Translations under genes and position numbers: made by a program
Part shown: piece by piece, positions 2,085-12,500 of the stretch
Layout of the letters: the number at the start of each line of letters is the position of its first letter
Position numbering within the stretch: position 1 is the first letter of the stretch
The notes under the pieces: model-generated
What the model was told of the DNA's origin: nothing
The model's input: the letters and a program-made list of their open reading frames with translations, nothing else
Databases searched by the model: none
Source of the DNA: Bacteroidales bacterium
GTDB lineage: Bacteria; Bacteroidota; Bacteroidia; Bacteroidales; UBA932
DNA length: 64,000 nucleotides
NCBI GenBank assembly: GCA_017550655.1
Contig: JAFZOK010000013.1
Span: 248,001 to 312,000 of the forward strand
Direction: 5' to 3'

Positions 2085-2234
2085 ATGAAAAAAATCGGAA
2101 AACAGTTTTATACCTCGCCCTCGATAAGGGTATTTGAGGTGGCTCAACAGGGTGTTCTCTGCCAAAATAGCGGAGACACGGAAGGATACCACGAAGGAGA
2201 AGAGTATGATGACGATGATTTCAATTCAAACTAA
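2085..2234 (+). CDS. Small acidic peptide, paralogue of the one at 5301
   Basis: A 49-residue ORF beginning MKKIGKQFYTSPSIRVFEV, with a central QQGVLCQNSGD and a strongly acidic tail ending DDDDFNSN. It has no signal peptide or membrane segment. A 47-residue paralogue sits in the same place before the next lipoprotein gene, sharing the MKK(I/V)xKQ(F/L)Y start, the (Q/E)QG or QEG-(V/I)-(L/V)C core, SGD, an acidic tail and DFN. The stop at 2232-2234 is 16 nt before the lipoprotein ATG, so the two are almost certainly cotranscribed. Similar short peptides are often seen beside fimbrillin-type genes in Bacteroidales; their function is not known to me. Confidence 0.75.
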   Translation: MKKIGKQFYTSPSIRVFEVAQQGVLCQNSGDTEGYHEGEEYDDDDFNSN

Positions 2235-2250
2235 TCGCGGAGGAAAAGTC

Positions 2251-5200
2251 ATGAAAAAGTCAATTTATATTCTTATCGCTATAAGTGCAGGACTTCTCTA
2301 CTCCTGCGCAAAAGAGGACAAGGCTTTGACCGAGACCGAAACTCCTCCTCAAAACAGGATTGTCTTTACAGCCACCACAGAACCGGCCACGAAAACCGCT
2401 CTGGAGGCGGACGGCAGTGGAGGGTACAATGTTGCCTGGAGGAGCGGAGACCAGATTGCCATATCAAATTCACCTTCCAGCTGGACCCGTCAGATGATCT
2501 ATTCCACAACCAGCAACACCACACACGCCGATTTCACTTATGTCAGCGGAGACCAGTGGACGGGAGAATATTACGCTTTTTACCCGGCCGACTGGTGGAC
2601 TTCAAGCACCGCCGCTTATCCTGTGACACAGTACTATGTTCCCGGAAATATTCCTAAAACCCCTATGGCTGCTTGTAGCAATACCACCAGCCTCCAGTTC
2701 AGGAACATTGGTGGCCTGGTCAAGATAAACCTGAAGACCACACTTTCTGGTCAGAAAGTCCAGAAAATATACCTTTATTCCGAATCCAACAGCCTTAGCG
2801 GAAGTATTACGAATATGTATCAGGTCATGACGGCAGACCCGCCGATAGCCGCAACTATGGACCCGAACAGCCCGGCTCAGCACCCGGTAGTACTGGAATG
2901 CGGAAACGATGGAGTGGCTATAGGCTCCGACCCTACCCCGTTCTATATCGCCGTACCGGCAACCACCTATACCAGCTTCCAGATTTCGGTGATCACAACC
3001 GAAGGCATAAAGCAGGATTTCAGAATCAAGTCAGACAGAAGCGTTGTGGTGGAAAGAAGCGCCGTAACCAATATCAACCTCACTTTCACCAAAACAGAAG
3101 AGATTATAGACCTGAGTGAAAAAGAATCGGCAAACACCTACATGGTAACCGAGAGCGGTTACTACAAGTTCAAGGCTACCGTTAAGGGTAACGGAGGCCT
3201 GGATCCTGTAACCGGAACAAAGGCCACGGAGATCAACAAGAGCGACATTAGCGGAGTGGTTGCCCTCTGGGAAGTCCAGCAAAGAGGCATGGGAATCAGG
3301 TTTGACAGCAATATACAGGAGTACGAGCTGTCTTATCACGATGGTTATGTTTATTTCCACTCCTTAAGCAAGGGCGCCGTCTATGTTGCCGTCTACAAGG
3401 ACAAGGAAGGCGGAACGGATGGTGTCTATGACAAGGATATCGACGAGATACTCTGGAGCTGGCTGATATGGTCAACCTATGCACCGGGAAAAATAATTTA
3501 CAACGGCAATGCGTTCATGGACCGCAATATCGGCTCCCTCTATGAGGGCTGGTGGGAAGGAAAGGGCTACAATGGCGGTTTCAGCTATCAGTGGGGAAGG
3601 CCTGCACCGTTCGCTACTTCATTAGGGCAAGCCTATACTCCATTCAATTACATCCCTCAAAGAACTAATGTCTTCTCATTTGAGAACATAGGAAACGGAA
3701 CTACCGTAGACCACGCCACCTCACATCCTGTCACATTCTTCTACCACGGCAGCAGAAGTAACTGGATGCCGGATGCCTCAACTTGCATGACACTTTGGTC
3801 AGATAACGTCAAAACCATTTATGACCCGTCTCCAATTGGATGGAAAGTTCCTTCAAAGGCCCAGCTGACCGGAATTACATCGGCCATGAGCTTCTATGGA
3901 ACCGGTTTTATTGGCCCTGCCTGCGATTCGGATTTCGGATATGGAAATCCAGGTTCCGTTTTGCTATGGAGCAGCACCTGTGACGACAGTGACGGTTTCA
4001 TCGGAGCCTGGGCAAACGCCTATGGTTCAATGTATAAAAAATACGGGAGCTGGCCTGACGTATATATGATGGCCGGAATGCCTATACGTCCGGTTCAGGA
4101 TGAGGCTTCCATGACATACGCTGACCTCAGCGCAGAGGAAACAGCCAACTGCTACATAATTTCCGGTTCCGGAGACTATAAGTTCAAGGCTACCGTAAGA
4201 GGTAACGGAGCCGCTACGCTTGCCGGCGTCAGCAAAACCATAAGCCCGTCTGAAATCGCTTCGGCTAGTCTTCTTTGGGCAAGTTACGGCACCTCTACCG
4301 CCCCGGCAGAGGCTGAAATGCTTTATGGTGTCCGCTATGAAGACGGTTATGTATATTTCCACGTTCCTGAAACCTTCCATGAAGGCAATGCTGTTATTGC
4401 TATCAAGAATTCCGGCGGAACGATTCTCTGGAGCTGGCACCTGTGGTTTACCACAACCGACCTTGCCAGCCTTGCCCAGACTTACAATAGCGGCGCCGTA
4501 TTTATGGACCGCAACCTTGGAGCGTTGACCAGAACCCATAGCAACGCCAACACCTTCGATTACGGTCTTATGTACCAGTGGGGAAGAAAAGATCCGTTCC
4601 AGAATGCCGTTCTCCCAGGATTTAACGACGGTTACGTATCTTCAAGCGACTGGGCTACCTGTTACATTCCAGCCACTCTTGGAGCGGCCGAACAACGCAC
4701 TATTATGGCAAACCCTACGGTAGCCTCAATGGTTGCATATCCAACTACCTTCAGCAGAGGATCCTACGCAAACAGCAATTTCGACTACGACAACTGGGCT
4801 ACAGACATTACCGAAGATCTGTGGCAGGAAAGCAAAACCATCTTTGACCCTTGTCCTTCCGGATGGAAAGTACCTGACAAGAGCGCCTGGAACGATCAGT
4901 TCGTCGTTTGGCTGGATGGGCATAGTTTCTATCAAGACGGTTTTTATATTGATGAAGGTGGAATTAAATGCCGCTTCCCTGGCATTGCCGCCCGTATGCC
5001 TAATGCTGTCTACGGATATCACGGAAGCCAATCCTACAAACTTATAAATGGAGAGGGAGCCCTTGAAAGAACGAGCAATTATCACGTTATCGTATGGGCT
5101 CAAAACGGTGTGCTGTTAAAAGAGAAATTCTATTACGAGGAGAATGGTGGAGGTATGTATGGCTTCACCCCAAATCCTACCGGAGTTTATAACTATTCAG

Positions 5201-5265
5201 ACTTTGGAAACGTCCGCAATTTGTACAAGACCAGAGGCGGTAGCGTACGCTGCGTAAGGGAATAA
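2251..5265 (+). CDS. Large fimbrillin/FISUMP-type surface lipoprotein with two C-terminal repeats
   Basis: 1004 residues from ATG 2251, preceded by GGAGG. Residues 1-19 form a lipoprotein signal peptide (LLYSC, Cys19) followed by AKED, compatible with surface export. Residues ~30-285 resemble fimbrillin-like (Mfa-like) domains, with EPATKTALE and WRSGDQIAI. Two homologous blocks follow, ~288-617 and ~624-1004, each with a (D)LSxxExAN start, YKFKATVxGNG, a MDRN(I/L)G motif, YQWGR and a DPxPxGWKVP motif typical of FISUMP/TIGR02145 domains. Block 2 keeps NCY, DPCP and VRCV; block 1 has NTY, DPSP and IRPV. A surface or fimbrial-tip adhesin role is inferred from the family. It is second in the module after the 49-residue peptide. 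Confidence 0.85.
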   Translation: MKKSIYILIAISAGLLYSCAKEDKALTETETPPQNRIVFTATTEPATKTALEADGSGGYNVAWRSGDQIAISNSPSSWTRQMIYSTTSNTTHADFTYVSGDQWTGEYYAFYPADWWTSSTAAYPVTQYYVPGNIPKTPMAACSNTTSLQFRNIGGLVKINLKTTLSGQKVQKIYLYSESNSLSGSITNMYQVMTADPPIAATMDPNSPAQHPVVLECGNDGVAIGSDPTPFYIAVPATTYTSFQISVITTEGIKQDFRIKSDRSVVVERSAVTNINLTFTKTEEIIDLSEKESANTYMVTESGYYKFKATVKGNGGLDPVTGTKATEINKSDISGVVALWEVQQRGMGIRFDSNIQEYELSYHDGYVYFHSLSKGAVYVAVYKDKEGGTDGVYDKDIDEILWSWLIWSTYAPGKIIYNGNAFMDRNIGSLYEGWWEGKGYNGGFSYQWGRPAPFATSLGQAYTPFNYIPQRTNVFSFENIGNGTTVDHATSHPVTFFYHGSRSNWMPDASTCMTLWSDNVKTIYDPSPIGWKVPSKAQLTGITSAMSFYGTGFIGPACDSDFGYGNPGSVLLWSSTCDDSDGFIGAWANAYGSMYKKYGSWPDVYMMAGMPIRPVQDEASMTYADLSAEETANCYIISGSGDYKFKATVRGNGAATLAGVSKTISPSEIASASLLWASYGTSTAPAEAEMLYGVRYEDGYVYFHVPETFHEGNAVIAIKNSGGTILWSWHLWFTTTDLASLAQTYNSGAVFMDRNLGALTRTHSNANTFDYGLMYQWGRKDPFQNAVLPGFNDGYVSSSDWATCYIPATLGAAEQRTIMANPTVASMVAYPTTFSRGSYANSNFDYDNWATDITEDLWQESKTIFDPCPSGWKVPDKSAWNDQFVVWLDGHSFYQDGFYIDEGGIKCRFPGIAARMPNAVYGYHGSQSYKLINGEGALERTSNYHVIVWAQNGVLLKEKFYYEENGGGMYGFTPNPTGVYNYSDFGNVRNLYKTRGGSVRCVRE

Positions 5266-5300
5266 ATTCTTTCAATGATGTTTTATAAAAGATCATATCG

Positions 5301-5444
5301 ATGAAAAAGGTTGTAAAACAGCTTTATGAAGCGCCTTCCCTAGAGTTCCAGGACCTGGAGCAGGAGGGCATTGTCTGCGCAAGCGGAGATAATGAGGATT
5401 TCGGCGACGGAGATGATTATGGAGAAGGAGATTTCAATGCTTAG
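5301..5444 (+). CDS. Small acidic peptide, paralogue of the one at 2085
   Basis: A 47-residue ORF beginning MKKVVKQLYEAPSLEFQ, continuing QEGIVCASGDNEDFG and ending in an acidic GEGDFNA tail. It lacks a signal sequence. The TAG at 5442-5444 is 12 nt before the ATG of the second lipoprotein and overlaps its GGGAGG ribosome-binding region. The same pairing occurs at 2085/2251, so peptide plus lipoprotein appears to be the duplicated unit. It is too short for most gene callers. Conservation of the Cys-x-x-Ser-Gly-Asp core and acidic tail between the copies argues that it is translated. Function unknown. Confidence 0.75.
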   Translation: MKKVVKQLYEAPSLEFQDLEQEGIVCASGDNEDFGDGDDYGEGDFNA

Positions 5445-5456
5445 GGAGGGACGGTT

Positions 5457-7802
5457 ATGAAAAAGTTTTTTGCAATAATTATCGCGATTAGCGCAGGACT
5501 GTCCGTTTCCTGCTCAAAGGAAGATGTAGCTGTAAATCAGAAAAAAGTTGCGTTCAAAGCAACAGCAGAGCCCGCAACAAAGACCGCTCTGAATGGCAAT
5601 AAAGTTGTCTGGCAGAACGGAGACCAGATCACAGTTGTAGACGGAGCTTCAAATGTTGGTGTTTATTCCACAACCAGCACCACTTCTCACGCTGATTTCA
5701 CATTTGAAAGCGGAACAGAGGCTACAACTCCTGATTATAAGGCATATTATCCGGTAACGATGTATAACTCAGGCACGCCAACCCTCCCTGCAATCCAGAA
5801 TTATGTGGAGGGCAACATTTCCAGCTCGCCGATGTATGCGGAGAGTTCTACGGAAACCCTGGCATTCAAGAACATCTGCGGAATTGTCCGCCTTAATGTA
5901 AGCACCACACAAACCGGAAAGAAAGTGCGGAAGATTGTCCTTACAGCAGACCAGGGAATGAGCGGAGCCATCACCAATGCCGCAACCATTGCAACTGACA
6001 GTTATGTAGCAGCAGTTTCCGGTACTGCAGGCATTACGTTGGACTGCGGAGAAAGTGGAGTGGAGATTGGCAGCACAGCTAAACCGTTTCATATAGCTGT
6101 TCCTCAAAACTCTTATTCATCGCTGAGTATTACAGTTATTACAACGGATGGAGAATATCAGGTGCGCACAGCCAACAAGAATATTGCAATTACCAGAAGC
6201 AGCATAACAGACATTACACTGGCTTTCAGCAACATGCAAAGCGTGGGAGGATTGGTTCACTACTGGCCGTTTGACGGAAATGCCAAAGATATCGTGGGTG
6301 GCGTGGATGCAACCGTTTATGGAGCAACGCTGACTACAGACCGTTTCGGAAACGAGAACGGCGCTTACTATTTTGACGGCAATGACAAAATGATTGCGCC
6401 TGGTGCTGCCGAGTTTGGAACCTCTTCATTTACGGCAAATATCTGGGTGAACAGCACTCAAACTTATGGCTCTGGAAACCTGATGAGGACAGATGGCGGA
6501 TATTACAAAGGATGGCTGCTCCGTTTCAACGGCGGAAGGCTTGAAATCTGGGAGGGCAGAACCAGCAACTATGCATTTGTGTCCGGCACTTCTTATGCTG
6601 ACGGCAACTGGCACATGGTAACCTTTGTAAGAGATGTGGAAAATAAGGTCGGTAAACTTTATGTGGATGGAAGCTACGTCGGTTGCTATAACATGACCGG
6701 CAGCATCAACGACGTTAGCAATGAACTCCGTTTCGGAACTTATGGAGATGGAGAATATTACAGCGGCAAGATGGATGACGCCCGTCTGTATGACAAGGCC
6801 CTTAACGATGCGGAGGTGTTGGCTTTATATAATGACACCGACCCTTATACTGACCTCAGCGAAACAGAAGCGGCAAACTGTTATCTAGTTCCCACTGCAG
6901 GAATGTACAAGTTCAAGGCTACATTAAAAGGAAACGGCGCTGCAGATTTGGGTGGCATAAGCAAGGATACGGATCCCGCTGACATAAATACCGCTTCTCT
7001 CGTTTGGGCCACTTTCAACACGACGGTTGCTCCAGCGGATGGTGAACTTATTAAGAATATCTGCTATTCCAATAGCTATGTATATTTCTCTACTGGAGAT
7101 ACTTACAAGGAAGGAAATGCATTGATAGCCATTAAAGATGCATCCGATAAGATTCTCTGGAGTTGGCATCTGTGGTTTGAAAGTGACAACCTTGTATCCT
7201 TGGCCCAGACTTATCCGACTTCCGGTTATGTGGTGATGGACCGTAACCTTGGAGCCTTGACCAATTGCTATGCTGCAGACAATGCCCTTGATTTCGGCTT
7301 TGCCTATCAGCATGGCCGTAAGGATCCGTTCATGATGACTGCATCCAGAACAACTTATACACAACTCGGAGTTTTAGGTACCTATACGTCTTCTGCCGGA
7401 TCATCTACCGTTGCAAGCAGCATAGAGCGTCCAACCGTTGTTTTCGGAACAGATTCCTGGGGAGGAAATTCGGATCTCTGGTCTGCCGCATCCAAAACAA
7501 TATTTGACCCATGTCCTCCTGGTTGGCATGTTGCTCCGGGAAATATGGTTTCAGGACAATGGAGTTTGTTTACCATTCCGGACAACGACTGGAGTACCTA
7601 TCACGGGCTTATGTTCAACGGCGTGGCTTGGTGGCCGGCTACTGGAGACCGGTGGGGAGCCAATCACAATAACACAGGAACAACCCTTCGTGTCTGGGCC
7701 GATATCAGCGGGTGTGATATTGCATCAGACAATGGATCAACTCCACATAGAGATATTTCCAATCCTGGCCATGGCTACAGCGTACGCTGCGTAAGGCAAT
7801 AA
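5457..7802 (+). CDS. Fimbrillin/LamG/FISUMP-type surface lipoprotein
   Basis: 781 residues. The signal peptide ends at Cys19 (LSVSC) followed by SKED, nearly identical to the upstream lipoprotein. Residues ~25-258 are fimbrillin-like (EPATKTALN, VVWQNGDQITV). Residues ~264-455 form a LamG/concanavalin-like jelly-roll (GLVHYWPFDGNAKD, AYYFDGNDKM, DARLYDKALNDAEV). Residues ~464-781 form one FISUMP-type block with NCY, MDRNLGAL, YQHGRKDPF, DPCPPGWHV and a final SVRCVRQ. The LamG insert is absent from the first lipoprotein and may bind carbohydrate or protein ligands; this is inferred from the fold. Cotranscribed with the upstream peptide and probably with the regulator 36 nt downstream. Confidence 0.85.
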   Translation: MKKFFAIIIAISAGLSVSCSKEDVAVNQKKVAFKATAEPATKTALNGNKVVWQNGDQITVVDGASNVGVYSTTSTTSHADFTFESGTEATTPDYKAYYPVTMYNSGTPTLPAIQNYVEGNISSSPMYAESSTETLAFKNICGIVRLNVSTTQTGKKVRKIVLTADQGMSGAITNAATIATDSYVAAVSGTAGITLDCGESGVEIGSTAKPFHIAVPQNSYSSLSITVITTDGEYQVRTANKNIAITRSSITDITLAFSNMQSVGGLVHYWPFDGNAKDIVGGVDATVYGATLTTDRFGNENGAYYFDGNDKMIAPGAAEFGTSSFTANIWVNSTQTYGSGNLMRTDGGYYKGWLLRFNGGRLEIWEGRTSNYAFVSGTSYADGNWHMVTFVRDVENKVGKLYVDGSYVGCYNMTGSINDVSNELRFGTYGDGEYYSGKMDDARLYDKALNDAEVLALYNDTDPYTDLSETEAANCYLVPTAGMYKFKATLKGNGAADLGGISKDTDPADINTASLVWATFNTTVAPADGELIKNICYSNSYVYFSTGDTYKEGNALIAIKDASDKILWSWHLWFESDNLVSLAQTYPTSGYVVMDRNLGALTNCYAADNALDFGFAYQHGRKDPFMMTASRTTYTQLGVLGTYTSSAGSSTVASSIERPTVVFGTDSWGGNSDLWSAASKTIFDPCPPGWHVAPGNMVSGQWSLFTIPDNDWSTYHGLMFNGVAWWPATGDRWGANHNNTGTTLRVWADISGCDIASDNGSTPHRDISNPGHGYSVRCVRQ

Positions 7803-7838
7803 TTGCTAAATTTGGCTTAGGAATACTTCTGGAAAGTT

Positions 7839-9518
7839 ATGAAGCTCTGGAAAGCTTTTGCCATATCACTTCTTGCAGCCGCCTGTTCCTCTGAGAGAGG
7901 GAACGGGCCGGCTACGGTTGAAGTGGATGGGGTTGTTTTTCAGAGAATGAGTGTGGAGACTTTTCCGAACCTGAACCACAACAGGGGCGGACACTTTACC
8001 TTATGCCTGAAGGGAGAACCTACCGTTTTTGCAGGACATACGGACGGGTTTGTGATGGAGAAGACTGCGGAATACTTCAAGGACGGAAAATGGGTGGAAA
8101 TCCCTATGCTCTATCCGCACGATTTCGGTTTTGCGGTAAAACTTCCGGACGGGAAGGTGATGCTGGGAGGTGGAGCAGCCGAAAATTTCGGCATAGGGCA
8201 AAGCTGGGGAGTGGAAATCTATGATCCCGAAACGCATTCTTTTACCTCACCCGGTATCCTTAACCGCAAGAGGATAGAAGCCTCGGCGACAGCTTTTGAC
8301 AACGGAAAGGTTATTGTCTCCGGAAACTGGTATGCCGATGACGACATTGAAGAATATGTGCCTGGCAAGGGCTTTTCCCTTGTAAAGCAGGTCACTGTCC
8401 AGAGGAGTTTTCCTTTCATTCTTCAGTCTGACTCTTCTCAGGCGATAATCTTTTCTTCTACAGGTGTTCGCGGGGATTCCCTTGGCGGACAGGTGGACCG
8501 CCTCTACGGGGAGCCGTTTGAGGTGCCGCTTCTTGAAGACTGGAGAATGATGACTTCTTCCGGCACATATAATTCAAACGGCAACTTCATCGGCGACTAT
8601 ACCTATCTGATCCACGTCAAAAGAAAAACAGACGGGCAGGATGCAGTAATGAAGGTGGCGGGAGAGCATTTTTCCATTCTGGATATGGAACAGCCTATTC
8701 CGGAAGATGGTATCGGGGGAGAAAAAATTTACTGGGGAAACAAAATAAGGATAAACAGGAAGAAACGGAACGCTGTCTTGCTGGGATTTGACAGTTGCCA
8801 CCGTTACTATCTGGCCCAGATAAACTATGACGCCACTCTGGACGGAGGAAAAGCCAGCCTTGAACTGTTTTACGCAGAAACTCCCGCCAATGTCACCATT
8901 GCGGATGAAAGCTGGGATATGATGGAAGACGGCCGCATCATCCTTGCCGGAGGAGTTTCCTTTAACGAGGATACATTGTCTTTAGCCACAACCAATTTCA
9001 AGACAAACAGCATTGTCTATGTCTTCAGTACCCAGCCAGAAGAAAGTTCAAATTCTCCGTGGCTATGGGTTTTAAGCGGATTCCTTGTTGTGGGTGGTTG
9101 TATCTTCCTGGCATATAGACTATTGTCCAAGAAATCCCCGGAAGAGGAAGAAAAAGACATCGCTGAGGAGGCGAAGAAATCAAGGCAGGAACTTCAGGAA
9201 CAGGTTTCCAAGCTCATCGAGGAAAAGCAGCTCTTCAGGAAAAAGGATATACGCATCAGCGACATAGCCTCTGAACTCGCCACCAACAGAACTTATATCA
9301 GCCTGATTGTAAACAGTTCTCTCGGGACCAGCTTCTCGGACCTTATCAACAATTACCGCATAGAATACGCTCAGAAATTGATGACGGATCATCCGGAGAT
9401 GTCCCATACTGATGTGGCGGAAGAATCCGGATTCTCATCCAGAACTTCGTTCCTCCGCACATTCAAGGCAAAAACCGGAATGTCCCCTACCGAGTGGAAA
9501 CTATCCCGCAGGGATTAA
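7839..9518 (+). CDS. Membrane-spanning AraC-family regulator with Kelch-like periplasmic sensor
   Basis: 559 residues. A signal peptide with a lipobox-like end (LLAAACSS, Cys16) is followed by a ~380-residue extracytoplasmic region with Kelch-like strands (AVKLPDGKVMLGGG, MMEDGRIILAGG). A single membrane helix lies at ~407-428 (WVLSGFLVVGGCIFLAYRLL), then a charged coiled segment, then an AraC/XylS double helix-turn-helix at ~467-559 (ISDIASELATNRTYISLIVN, DVAEESGFSSRTSFLRTFKA). Sensing outside and binding DNA inside is inferred from the topology. It is the last gene of the surface-protein locus and may control it. Its TAA shares TTAA with the stop of the convergent gene. Confidence 0.85.
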   Translation: MKLWKAFAISLLAAACSSERGNGPATVEVDGVVFQRMSVETFPNLNHNRGGHFTLCLKGEPTVFAGHTDGFVMEKTAEYFKDGKWVEIPMLYPHDFGFAVKLPDGKVMLGGGAAENFGIGQSWGVEIYDPETHSFTSPGILNRKRIEASATAFDNGKVIVSGNWYADDDIEEYVPGKGFSLVKQVTVQRSFPFILQSDSSQAIIFSSTGVRGDSLGGQVDRLYGEPFEVPLLEDWRMMTSSGTYNSNGNFIGDYTYLIHVKRKTDGQDAVMKVAGEHFSILDMEQPIPEDGIGGEKIYWGNKIRINRKKRNAVLLGFDSCHRYYLAQINYDATLDGGKASLELFYAETPANVTIADESWDMMEDGRIILAGGVSFNEDTLSLATTNFKTNSIVYVFSTQPEESSNSPWLWVLSGFLVVGGCIFLAYRLLSKKSPEEEEKDIAEEAKKSRQELQEQVSKLIEEKQLFRKKDIRISDIASELATNRTYISLIVNSSLGTSFSDLINNYRIEYAQKLMTDHPEMSHTDVAEESGFSSRTSFLRTFKAKTGMSPTEWKLSRRD

Positions 9519-12500
9519 TAGAATTCAATGCCTAAGAGGAGGGTGCAGAAGTTGCGCCCTCCTTTTCCGTCGTATGTGGCTGGAGTGGCGTTGCCGTAGT
9601 CGCAAGGCTTGTTGGTCCTGGCGTAGCGGACTCCTATGTACATCGGGAAGCCTATTCTCAGGAAGTGGCCCTTCAGCATAACATCCGCTCCGAAGGAGTA
9701 GCGGCTTTCCCACTGGTAGTGAAATCCAGTGTAGAAACCCATCAGACCGCCTGTCCTGCGGTAGAAATCAACCCTTGAGTAATCTATGAACGGTATTACC
9801 TGAAGTTGCTTCAGATAGGCAATCGGGCCGATTGACACATCGCCGAGATAAATTGGAATTGCATAGTCTGCGGTTGCCCTTATCATGTTGCGGCCGTAGA
9901 AGTCCTCGGTAAATCCTCTCGGAAGATCCAGATGGTTATCCAGCCAGAACTTCTTGCCCTCCACGTTCTGCCTCTGGAAAGCTGCACTCAGCCTAAGGCC
10001 CTGGTTGAATGTAAGGCCGGGAACATATCCGTAAGCGTATGCGGAGAACTGGGAGCCGAACCTGTCTCCTCCTTCAGGGCTGAAGGAAGCGGCAACCCGC
10101 CCTCCAATTCCCCAGCGAGGGAAAACCTGGGATTCCGCCATCTCCTGCATATCGTATGCGCCCAGGGAGAAATTCAGCTGATGCCTGTTGATCTGCCTGA
10201 GGGTATAGGTATAGTCAGGTTCCTCATCGTCATCACTGGCTGCGGTCGAAGGCTCTGCCTCTTTCACGTCCAGGATTATCTGGTCGTTGCGGAAGCTCCA
10301 GCCGGCCAGAGGGGTAACGCCGGAGTTCCAGCCCGTTCCGCTCCAGGAAAGAGGAACATACGCATAAAGGGCACTTCTGAGAGAGAATCGGTCTTTCTTG
10401 TACATTATCCTGTCGTTGAAATGTACGGCACCTTCTACTACCGGATACCATCCGCTCCAGGTAAAGGAAGCATGGCCGGAATGAAGATGTTTGGATGTTC
10501 CGAGGAATCCTGTCCTGTGCTGGTATGCATAGCCCGCAGTGGCACGCAGGGTTCCAAGCGTATTCTGGGAGTAGAGAGTCACACCAGGAAGCGCCTCCTC
10601 ATAGAACTCCTCGAAATCCCCTTCCGTCACGCCGCTGAATTCCGCATATACCGGAGCCCAGGAGTGCAGCCTGATAAGATGTCCTGTCTTGCTGTAATCT
10701 TCTTCCCGAAACTGTCCCGGAGCATAATCTTCCACCTTCTTGCCGTACTTCTCGTTATACTGCCTTGAAAGTTCCTCAGCGAGTGGATTGGTGAACTCCA
10801 TTTCCTTTGAAACAGGAAGGGAAAGAAGCTTGTCGCAATGCAGGAACGCTCCCTTATCCTTGGAATCCTTGCTCACAAAGATTTTTCCTGTATCGGCGAT
10901 GCTGAAGGAGCATACATCCTCTGAAGCCGAAGCAAGTGAAATCTCTCCGGAAGACATGTCAAGCCTGCAGACAACTGGGCAACTGAACATATCCGTGAGA
11001 AAATAAACGCCATTTTCATAGCACTGGAGGTCCTTGACAATATGCTCAGTCTTATAGACAGAGTTTACCTTGCCCGATGAAAGCTTTCCGATTTCCATTC
11101 CTGAATCTCCAATCATGGAAAACCATATATCGCTGCCGGAGGAAGAAACGGAATTGATTTGTCCAGAAACCTCTATTCTAAGGTCTTCTGAAGAGGAACC
11201 GTCATCCAGGAATGCCACAGACCTGATGATGCTGGTGTTGTGGCCTGTTCCATACTGAACGCAGCAAAGCAGAGGACGGGAGCCGTATGTAACCACAAAC
11301 GGAAGATGGAGGGAATTGTTATCATCATCATAGAACTCGTCAACAATTTGCCCCGTACTCAGGTCATAGCCGTAAATGGAATAACTCGAGTGCTGCTTCC
11401 ACCTCGCGTCATAGTCGCTCTCGCTCACCCAGAGCCTGTTTCCGTAGAAGCAGAACTTTTCCGCACCTTCATAGTAAGGCCTGATGACTTTTTCCTTCCA
11501 TCCTTCAGCATAAGACTGTCCAGCGCCCGGTTCCCTGGTGAGGAGAACCAGCAGCCCCGGAGTTCCGGTACCGGAAACAACAGCTACAAGAGAATCTTTC
11601 CCGACAACGGTAACGTTACTGTATTCAGTGAAATAGCCACGGTGCTCACCTGTCCTTTTAACCGGATCAAAGACGAGCCTCTGTGATGCATCCTCATCTT
11701 CGATCTTGTCGAGAAATTCTTCCAGTTCTTCATTGGTGTTCAGGCGGAGGAATTCCTGGAGAATGCTGTCCTTGACATATTGGCGGTGGGTCTTGCCGGT
11801 AAATTCCTTGAAGGCGGAAGCCACCACATTGGCGCTCATGAAATGATTGGTCTCGTAATTCAGGATCTTGTCTGAAAGGTCCACATCCTTGCTGTGATAG
11901 CGGGCCATGGCGTTAATCATATAGCCCACACTGTAACGGTCTGGAGAATATGCCTTTACACTTCCGAAGCGCAAGCGGTCCCAGCTGCGGTTCTTGCCAT
12001 AGAAATACTTGTGGGCATCTTCTTCATCTTCAACGATAGTCTTGAGTATTTCGCAGAGGAAGAATCCGCTGCGGCCCCTGCCCCCGTTGCTTACCTGAGT
12101 TTCTGCTACCACCGCATCTCCTTCCAGGAACCATCTGGACGGGTAAATCGCAGAAGCCGCTCCCACCACCTGGTCTCCGAATCCCCAGGAAAGGACTTTG
12201 AAAATGCCGCGGTTGAAATGGGCTATCTGCCAGGCGTGCCTTCCCTCGTGGGAAGCAAGCGAAAGATCCCACGGCTCGGTGGATATCAGATTAACCGGCG
12301 GCTGTGCAAAGAAATCTATCTGGCGCGGTCCCCAGACTGTAATGCCGTTGCTTTCCGCATTGAACGGGTGAAGCACCAGAGGGAATCTCTTCGGCAGGCC
12401 GTAACTGTACTTGACGGAATCTGAATACATCCCGTAGAAAGATTCCACCTTTTTCAGATACCCTTCGGCATTTGCCCGCTCCCCTTCAGGATAAATGATT

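Follow-up and report, generated by a model that had tools for sequence, protein, structure and literature searches.

What is encoded by the very small open reading frames (ORFs) that stand directly before large lipoprotein genes in Bacteroidales? The question is raised by a 64,000-nucleotide stretch of a Bacteroidales genome (C15:248001-312000; genome of 2.26 Mb, 88% complete), called the window below, in which two such ORFs occur. An earlier note on this DNA had described them as a duplicated module of an acidic peptide and a fimbrillin/FISUMP lipoprotein, and had offered three possible roles for the peptides, as chaperones, as leader peptides or as modified peptides linked to surface assembly. 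The small ORFs most likely (with a probability of about 0.8) encode precursors of ribosomally synthesized and post-translationally modified peptides (RiPPs) resembling the linear polyphosphorylated peptides (LPPs) of Bacillota (Popov et al., Nat Commun 2026; PMC13381572). Most of these precursors are paired with a surface-type lipoprotein, and one enzyme set would serve many of them. The modules concerned consist of the following features.

2085-2234, + strand: peptide 1, proposed RiPP precursor, 49 aa (from the ORF list; family profile E = 8e-18, the peptide itself being a profile seed)
2109-2120, + strand: codons of the leader motif YxxP of peptide 1
2169-2171, + strand: Ser29, candidate acceptor of peptide 1, 20 residues past the Tyr; acidic tail
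2251-5265, + strand: partner lipoprotein 1, 1004 aa, signal peptide with lipobox Cys
5301-5444, + strand: peptide 2, proposed RiPP precursor, 47 aa (from the ORF list; family profile E = 8e-17, likewise a profile seed)
5325-5336, + strand: codons of the leader motif YxxP of peptide 2
5382-5384, + strand: Ser28, candidate acceptor of peptide 2, 19 residues past the Tyr; acidic tail
5457-7802, + strand: partner lipoprotein 2, 781 aa, lipobox, shared N-terminal domain, laminin-G domain (Laminin_G_3, E = 3.3e-22)
1-316, + strand: 3′ end of the lipoprotein gene of a third tandem module
C15:245862-246011, about 2 kb outside the window on its upstream side: peptide of the third module, preceding the lipoprotein that ends at window position 316

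The small ORFs are genes under selection

Both ORFs are present as described, ending 16 and 12 nt before the ATG codons of the lipoprotein genes at 2251 and 5457, and the features quoted for them are found: a common MKK-x-x-KQ start, G[VI]xC, SGD and an acidic tail with DFN, with no signal peptide recognizable by eye. The repeat is also real, except that it was counted too low, the module being at least triplicated. For the two window peptides, Pfam and NCBIfam contain no match at E<=1. Lipoproteins 1 and 2 have the N-terminal ~285 residues in common (42% identity) and a later stretch of ~250 residues (47%); no search detected the laminin-G domain of lipoprotein 2 in lipoprotein 1, which matches no Pfam family. 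The fimbrillin/FISUMP label fares less well, because FISUMP reaches E = 0.12 in lipoprotein 1, under the cut-off, and no fimbrillin family of Pfam or NCBIfam is above cut-off for either protein. Relatives of lipoprotein 2 were found at 13 loci in metagenome-assembled genomes of Bacteroidales, many from rumen or omasum; one, a weak match, is outside the order.

Selection on the peptides had been suggested from the duplication alone, and it is borne out by comparison of modules. In 30 module pairs chosen by similarity of the lipoprotein N-domain, the pooled ratio of nonsynonymous to synonymous divergence (dN/dS) of the peptides is 0.285 (426.2 nonsynonymous differences over 3249.2 sites, 327.8 synonymous differences over 890.8 sites; binomial p = 4e-41). 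For the lipoproteins, the value over their first 200 codons is 0.215 in the 30 pairs chosen by lipoprotein similarity, and an alternative set of 36 pairs picked by peptide similarity gives a peptide value of 0.24, which this choice biases downwards. The peptide frame is conserved, spurious ORFs are ruled out by these ratios, and the small ORFs are real genes.

The two peptides belong to a dispersed family. A search of their own genome with a single window peptide found 11 places at E<=10, and the profile made from these gave 24 rows at E<=10; with a wider profile, 23 members are found at E<=0.01, seven of them within C15:38.4-54.7 kb. Two of the 23 encode an identical peptide, and one is a Cys-rich type beside a radical S-adenosylmethionine (SAM) enzyme. 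Counting the own genome, matches occur in 28 of 39 genomes of the genus (E<=0.01) and in 17 of 294 genomes of the order (E<=0.001). A survey of 296 genomes of the phylum gave matches in two, the own genome and one of the same class (G333), and none outside the class. The profile matches six times in G333 (L201, L202, L203, L205 and L207), a genome that is not listed in the same order. Among 69 diverse relatives of the peptides, four have a single Pfam match each (E = 0.02-0.09) and none matches NCBIfam at E<=0.1.

A probable leader motif, a conserved serine and an acidic tail

The conserved part of the peptides reads YxxP...E[G/S]..[A/C]xS; the acidic tail after it is variable. YxxP is present in 125 of 125 genus peptides and in 27 from other clades, a count that is partly built in, because the profile was seeded with the motif and frames were trimmed on it. 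A Ser at +18 to +21 from the Tyr is found in 123 of the 125 genus peptides and in all 27 from other clades, and Glu at +13 in 90% and 85%, respectively. Ala stands two residues before the Ser in 20 of the 27 other-clade peptides, and the tail is net acidic in every one of the 125 genus peptides. In PMC12710340, YxxP is listed as the recognition motif for the RiPP recognition elements (RREs) of lasso peptides. A double-glycine (C39) leader was considered and dropped, as no Gly is found at -2; no search for it was made.

The tails show two further peculiarities. In a tandem peptide-lipoprotein array (L042:4446-17568 and L017:4554-4700), the tail IATMSSGDEVPPTPEEDWGDL is common to four peptides with differing N-terminal parts, pointing to gene conversion or to strong selection for this tail. 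At L137, in genome G024, the acidic part of three peptides is followed by a long basic extension, QMYNPKPDKNKLIG, that sets them apart from the other family members; these peptides lie 113-144 nt upstream of their lipoprotein.

A Cys-rich peptide with the YxxP leader adjoins a radical SAM/SPASM enzyme and its own RRE at two loci (L012:3234-5167, on contig C21, and L245:4976-6934), the cysteines beginning right after CQSG. This is a separate RiPP cluster, occurring in 2 of 39 genus genomes, and in this setting the N-terminus of the family looks like a RiPP leader. The likeness to radical SAM/SPASM RiPPs with Cys-rich precursors, for which the nearest model is TIGR04463 (below cut-off), is seen at these two loci. 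Close homologues of the enzyme are limited to 2 of 39 genus genomes, apart from which there are five weak matches at 26-29% identity; it was rejected as a general maturase, being too rare to mature the lipoprotein-linked peptides in general.

An enzyme operon co-occurs with the peptides

The genome that contains the window also encodes a candidate set of modifying enzymes.

C15:721331-724617: operon L233, encoding an HprK-like kinase, an S24/S26-type peptidase, an RRE and an ATP-binding cassette (ABC) exporter

The discrete RRE matches PF05402 over the cut-off in the own genome (E = 3.4e-16) and is found in 32 of 39 genus genomes; a second RRE of the own genome belongs to the radical SAM locus. 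Searched against the PDB, the RRE profile matches the lasso RREs TfuB1 (E = 3.6e-6) and TbiB1 (0.029); a single RRE matches TfuB1 alone of the lasso RREs (E = 0.13), among other weak matches, and the kinase and peptidase profiles find weak relatives only. The P-loop (G.SG.GKSTH), NDD and P-W-S-G-K-T of the kinase are invariant in 11 of 11 aligned sequences, as are the Ser, His and Asp of the peptidase in 10 of 10. The peptidase is over the cut-off of S24 (PF00717, E = 1.8e-6) in L233, and matches sigpep_I_arch (TIGR02228) at E = 1.8e-8 in L326 and 8e-4 in L235, both below the NCBIfam cut-off. The exporter in L233 is over cut-off for ABC_membrane and ABC_tran, with MsbA_lipidA (E = 3e-54) below cut-off among many ABC models. 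A nucleoside triphosphate (NTP) transferase, PF14907, is over cut-off in L326 (E = 4e-33) and L278, with profile matches in L348, L349, L350, L352 and L353. The full or near-full enzyme set is present in many relatives, and kinase and peptidase are fused in three genomes (G024, G031 and G034).

The enzymes and the peptides occur together, with p values that are inflated throughout by shared ancestry. In the genus, 27 of the 28 genomes with peptides have the RRE, against 5 of the 11 without (p = 9e-4). A kinase lies near the RRE in 26 genus genomes by hand count where the RRE locus was examined, namely 24 of 28 peptide-positive and 2 of 11 peptide-negative ones (p = 1.4e-4), in a hand table for which seven RRE-less genomes and the second RRE of G025 were not examined for the kinase. 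In the order, the RRE occurs in 15 of 17 peptide-positive versus 169 of 277 peptide-negative genomes (p = 0.018), and the kinase at >200 bits in 14 of 17 versus 4 of 277 (p = 7e-18). The kinase figure is 13 of 16 when the own genome is left out (p = 9e-17) and 12 of 15 versus 4 of 277 when the seed genomes G000 and G054 are left out (p = 1e-15); at E<=1e-10 it is 15 of 17 versus 27 of 277 (p = 2e-12). One enzyme-positive, peptide-negative genome (G032) has a small ORF with YKKP near the operon that the profile missed. In three others of this kind (G112, G205 and G120) a pattern scan gave no convincing peptide, and in G036 none was found.

Direct operon linkage in other loci

In other loci the peptide genes and the enzyme genes adjoin. 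The clearest arrangement is that of L348, from family f16, in which all seven genes lie on one strand as one operon and the last four overlap by a few bases.

3791-3928: peptide
3976-5961: lipoprotein
frame to 6918: kinase
6922-7419: peptidase of the signal-peptidase-I-like (SpI) type
7416-7682: RRE
7679-8803: NTP transferase
8797-10407: ABC transporter

At L282, in the genus, the order is peptide, lipoprotein, RRE, HprK-like kinase and SpI peptidase, with no exporter within 7 kb, and at L324 it is peptide, lipoprotein, ABC transporter, SpI peptidase, RRE, another ORF and HprK-like kinase. At L326, the peptide stands directly before the kinase, which is followed by SpI peptidase, RRE, NTP transferase and ABC transporter, and no lipoprotein lies between. 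These arrangements tie the kind of module seen in the window to the enzymes. A lipoprotein without a family peptide precedes the enzymes at L351, and enzymes without a peptide within the stretch are found at L349, L352 and L353.

Pairing with lipoproteins

The pairing of peptide and lipoprotein was assessed in 74 stretches, of which the own genome supplied 14 and 13 other genomes the remaining 60; they cover part of the listed peptide matches and were picked blind to their neighbours, and 132 frames in them matched at E<1e-4. By a strict rule, a lipobox-type protein lies directly downstream in 110 of 127 unique pairs, a number that leaves out L012, a false lipobox call inside the radical SAM gene. 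Eleven further pairs have other signal-like starts, among them a glycosyltransferase-like ORF 389 nt away (L136) and three that resemble secreted non-lipidated proteins. Five have no signal, four being cut by a contig or stretch end and the fifth being the other radical SAM case (L128). A looser rule finds a lipoprotein in 117 modules; the gap lies between -4 and 50 nt in 113 of them, and its median is 18 nt. As background, this rule accepts 32 of 184 ORFs from the window together with ten stretches that had been selected without regard to peptides.

Lys is the second residue past the lipobox Cys in 100 of the 117 partner lipoproteins, which resembles the known surface-export signals of Bacteroidetes lipoproteins. 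Type V fimbrillins (FimA/Mfa-like) are surface-type lipoproteins, as are the partner proteins here; Mfa-like matches, weak and below cut-off, occur in two other partner proteins (L013 and L284), and the fim/mfa operons are not known to have such a peptide. The similarity of peptide tails tracks that of the lipoprotein N-terminal domain (~280 residues; Mantel r = 0.72, about 0.6-0.7 over analyses) more closely than that of the signal peptide (r = 0.44) or the C-terminus (r = 0.33), and this correlation may reflect linkage, co-adaptation or both.

Comparison with known systems

According to PMC13381572, LPP precursors carry the motif YxxPxVLxHQxIxFETxxS, an HprK-like kinase phosphorylates Ser3 of the core, and the gene set comprises an RRE, an HprK-like kinase, an SpI-like peptidase, an MsbA-like exporter and an NTP transferase, with a role given as unknown. 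The system described here has the discrete RRE, the HprK-like kinase, the signal-peptidase-I-like peptidase and the MsbA-like exporter, with the NTP transferase in several Bacteroidales clusters, so that the own-genome operon equals the LPP core set minus the NTP transferase. Its precursors likewise have an N-terminus with a conserved YxxP...S and a variable C-terminus. It differs in its host, which belongs to Bacteroidales and not to Bacillota; in the middle portion of the leader; in the surface-type lipoprotein that follows most precursors; and in having 23 dispersed precursors for one enzyme operon. LPPs are called restricted to Bacillota in the Discussion of PMC13381572 and their peptidase cluster "predominantly" Bacillota in its section 6, and its main text makes no mention of Bacteroid*, fimbri* or lipoprotein. 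Bacteroidales RiPPs were mined in PMC10352776, the main text of which is also without fimbri* or lipoprotein, and many lasso-type RREs without lasso partners are reported in PMC7470986. Among the matches listed by a literature search, which left most subscription papers outside its coverage, nothing dealt with LPP-like systems in Bacteroidota or with RiPPs accompanying fimbrillins.

Points against the proposal and alternative explanations

Several observations weigh against the small ORFs being LPP-like precursors. The enzymes of the own genome lie ~470 kb from the window, on the same contig, and operon L233 contains no NTP transferase, the rest of that genome not having been searched for one. 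The kinase matches HprK_rel_A and ScmC of NCBIfam far below cut-off, and the HPr kinase families of Pfam give no match. The published leader has a middle section, LxHQxIxFET, running from YxxPxV towards the Ser, that these peptides do not share, and a residue of [ILVMFA] stands at +5 in only 62 of 125 genus peptides, where Cys and Thr are common, versus 26 of 27 from other clades. Two genomes of the order (G191 and G302) have peptides with neither RRE nor kinase found, and one of the genus (G006) has peptides with no RRE found, the kinase not having been searched for there. The RRE lacks an adjoining kinase in G018, G019 and G010, where a contig end cuts the locus, and four genomes of the order have the kinase with no peptide found. 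No downstream lipoprotein was found at five loci of f104 peptides (L138, L151, L158, L159 and L165). Nor is the pairing strict, because the L208 orthologue of lipoprotein 2 (92% identical) carries a different peptide type, on which ground strict peptide-lipoprotein co-evolution was rejected. Since the peptide and 5′ end at L208 resemble other modules, the cassettes seem to recombine, and linkage with recombination is enough to explain the tail correlation. Finally, leader binding, phosphorylation, the cleavage site, export, action with the lipoprotein and a surface role are all inferred.

Could the peptide instead act, unmodified and in the cytosol, as a dedicated chaperone or secretion pilot of the lipoprotein whose gene comes next? 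The mostly adjacent position with short gaps, the small, acidic, signal-less peptides and the way in which tail similarity follows the lipoprotein N-terminal domain would all suit such a role. It is nevertheless improbable, because it leaves the RRE-type YxxP, the conserved Ser, the co-occurrence with the kinase and the shared operons unexplained; moreover, the L326 precursor precedes a kinase and not a lipoprotein, the Cys-rich version adjoins a radical SAM enzyme with its own RRE, and orthologous lipoproteins can carry different peptide types. Of the roles first offered, a chaperone is not needed, and the modified peptide tied to surface assembly is strongly supported by indirect evidence, in the form of the leader motif, the co-occurring RiPP enzymes and the shared operons.

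The position just upstream of the next gene would also be expected of a regulatory leader (an attenuator or translational coupler), of which the translation matters and not the product, and translational coupling is likely in any case at a median gap of 18 nt. A purely regulatory role is very unlikely, however, because the gap has no room for a terminator hairpin, the peptides are under selection with conserved protein motifs, and at L326 the precursor is followed by the kinase gene with no lipoprotein between. Equally slim is the chance that the peptides are lasso precursors, of which YxxP is a leader motif too and whose RREs TfuB1 and TbiB1 are matched by the RRE profile. Paeninodin-type and other lasso clusters share a YxxP or WxxP leader, a discrete RRE, an HprK-like kinase, an NTP transferase and an ABC exporter with the present system; the kinase and the NTP transferase of paeninodin-type clusters are mentioned in PMC13381572. 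The peptidase here is of the S24/S26 type, whereas the B2-type leader peptidase of lasso clusters (PF13471) is over cut-off in 0 of 39 genus genomes, with weak partial matches in 14, and the seven-gene L348 operon has no extra gene for a cyclase, a family for which no search was made and which is absent from the genes recognized in that operon and in the enzyme operons inspected along with it.

Neighbouring genes

A set of three genes, encoding a helix-turn-helix (HTH) protein of 71 aa, a HipA N-terminal domain of 110 aa and a HipA C-terminal domain of 311 aa, occupies positions 400-1876 of the window, after the lipoprotein end at 1-316 and before peptide 1. This set resembles a split toxin-antitoxin system of the HipBST type. 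Directly after the modules, positions 7839-9518 encode a protein of 559 aa that, judged by eye, begins with a signal-like sequence and contains a membrane segment; it has a clear AraC-type DNA-binding domain and a kelch match under cut-off. DNA similar to this gene adjoins modules in L208, L209, L210 and L215, and the protein could be a membrane sensor that regulates the module array.

A model for the peptides and what it implies

If the small ORFs encode LPP-like precursors, the N-terminal half of each would be a leader, of which YxxP is probably bound by the stand-alone RRE, a PqqD-fold protein. By analogy with LPPs, the core may start near [A/C]xS, and the HprK-related kinase would phosphorylate the conserved Ser of that motif. 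The S24/S26-type (signal-peptidase-I-like) peptidase would then cut off the leader, and the MsbA-like ABC transporter would export the acidic core. The precursors are dispersed as cassettes, most being read just before their own surface-type lipoprotein, so that peptide and lipoprotein would be made together, and the mature peptide most likely acts with its lipoprotein at the cell surface. A more tentative suggestion, which we hold to be possible and somewhat doubtful, is that the acidic peptides, once mature and phosphorylated, serve as structural or functional components of surface adhesins, and not as antibiotics or signals, each being made along with its lipoprotein variant and binding, or being fixed to, the N-terminal domain of that protein.

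The kinds of enzyme involved are already known from LPPs (PMC13381572); what is new is probably the presence of LPP-like precursors in a new arrangement. The LPP-type enzyme set is now seen in many Bacteroidales families, beyond Bacillota, and because the likely precursors are physically linked to surface-type lipoproteins, a peptide family described only recently gains a testable candidate partner. This suggests that RiPP chemistry serves cell-surface display in gut bacteria. The proposal also accounts for a group of small proteins that has no Pfam or NCBIfam family and is of the kind missed by gene finders. If the adhesin suggestion is true, a genome with at least 20 cassettes and one modification line would display a variable coat of RiPP-decorated adhesins.

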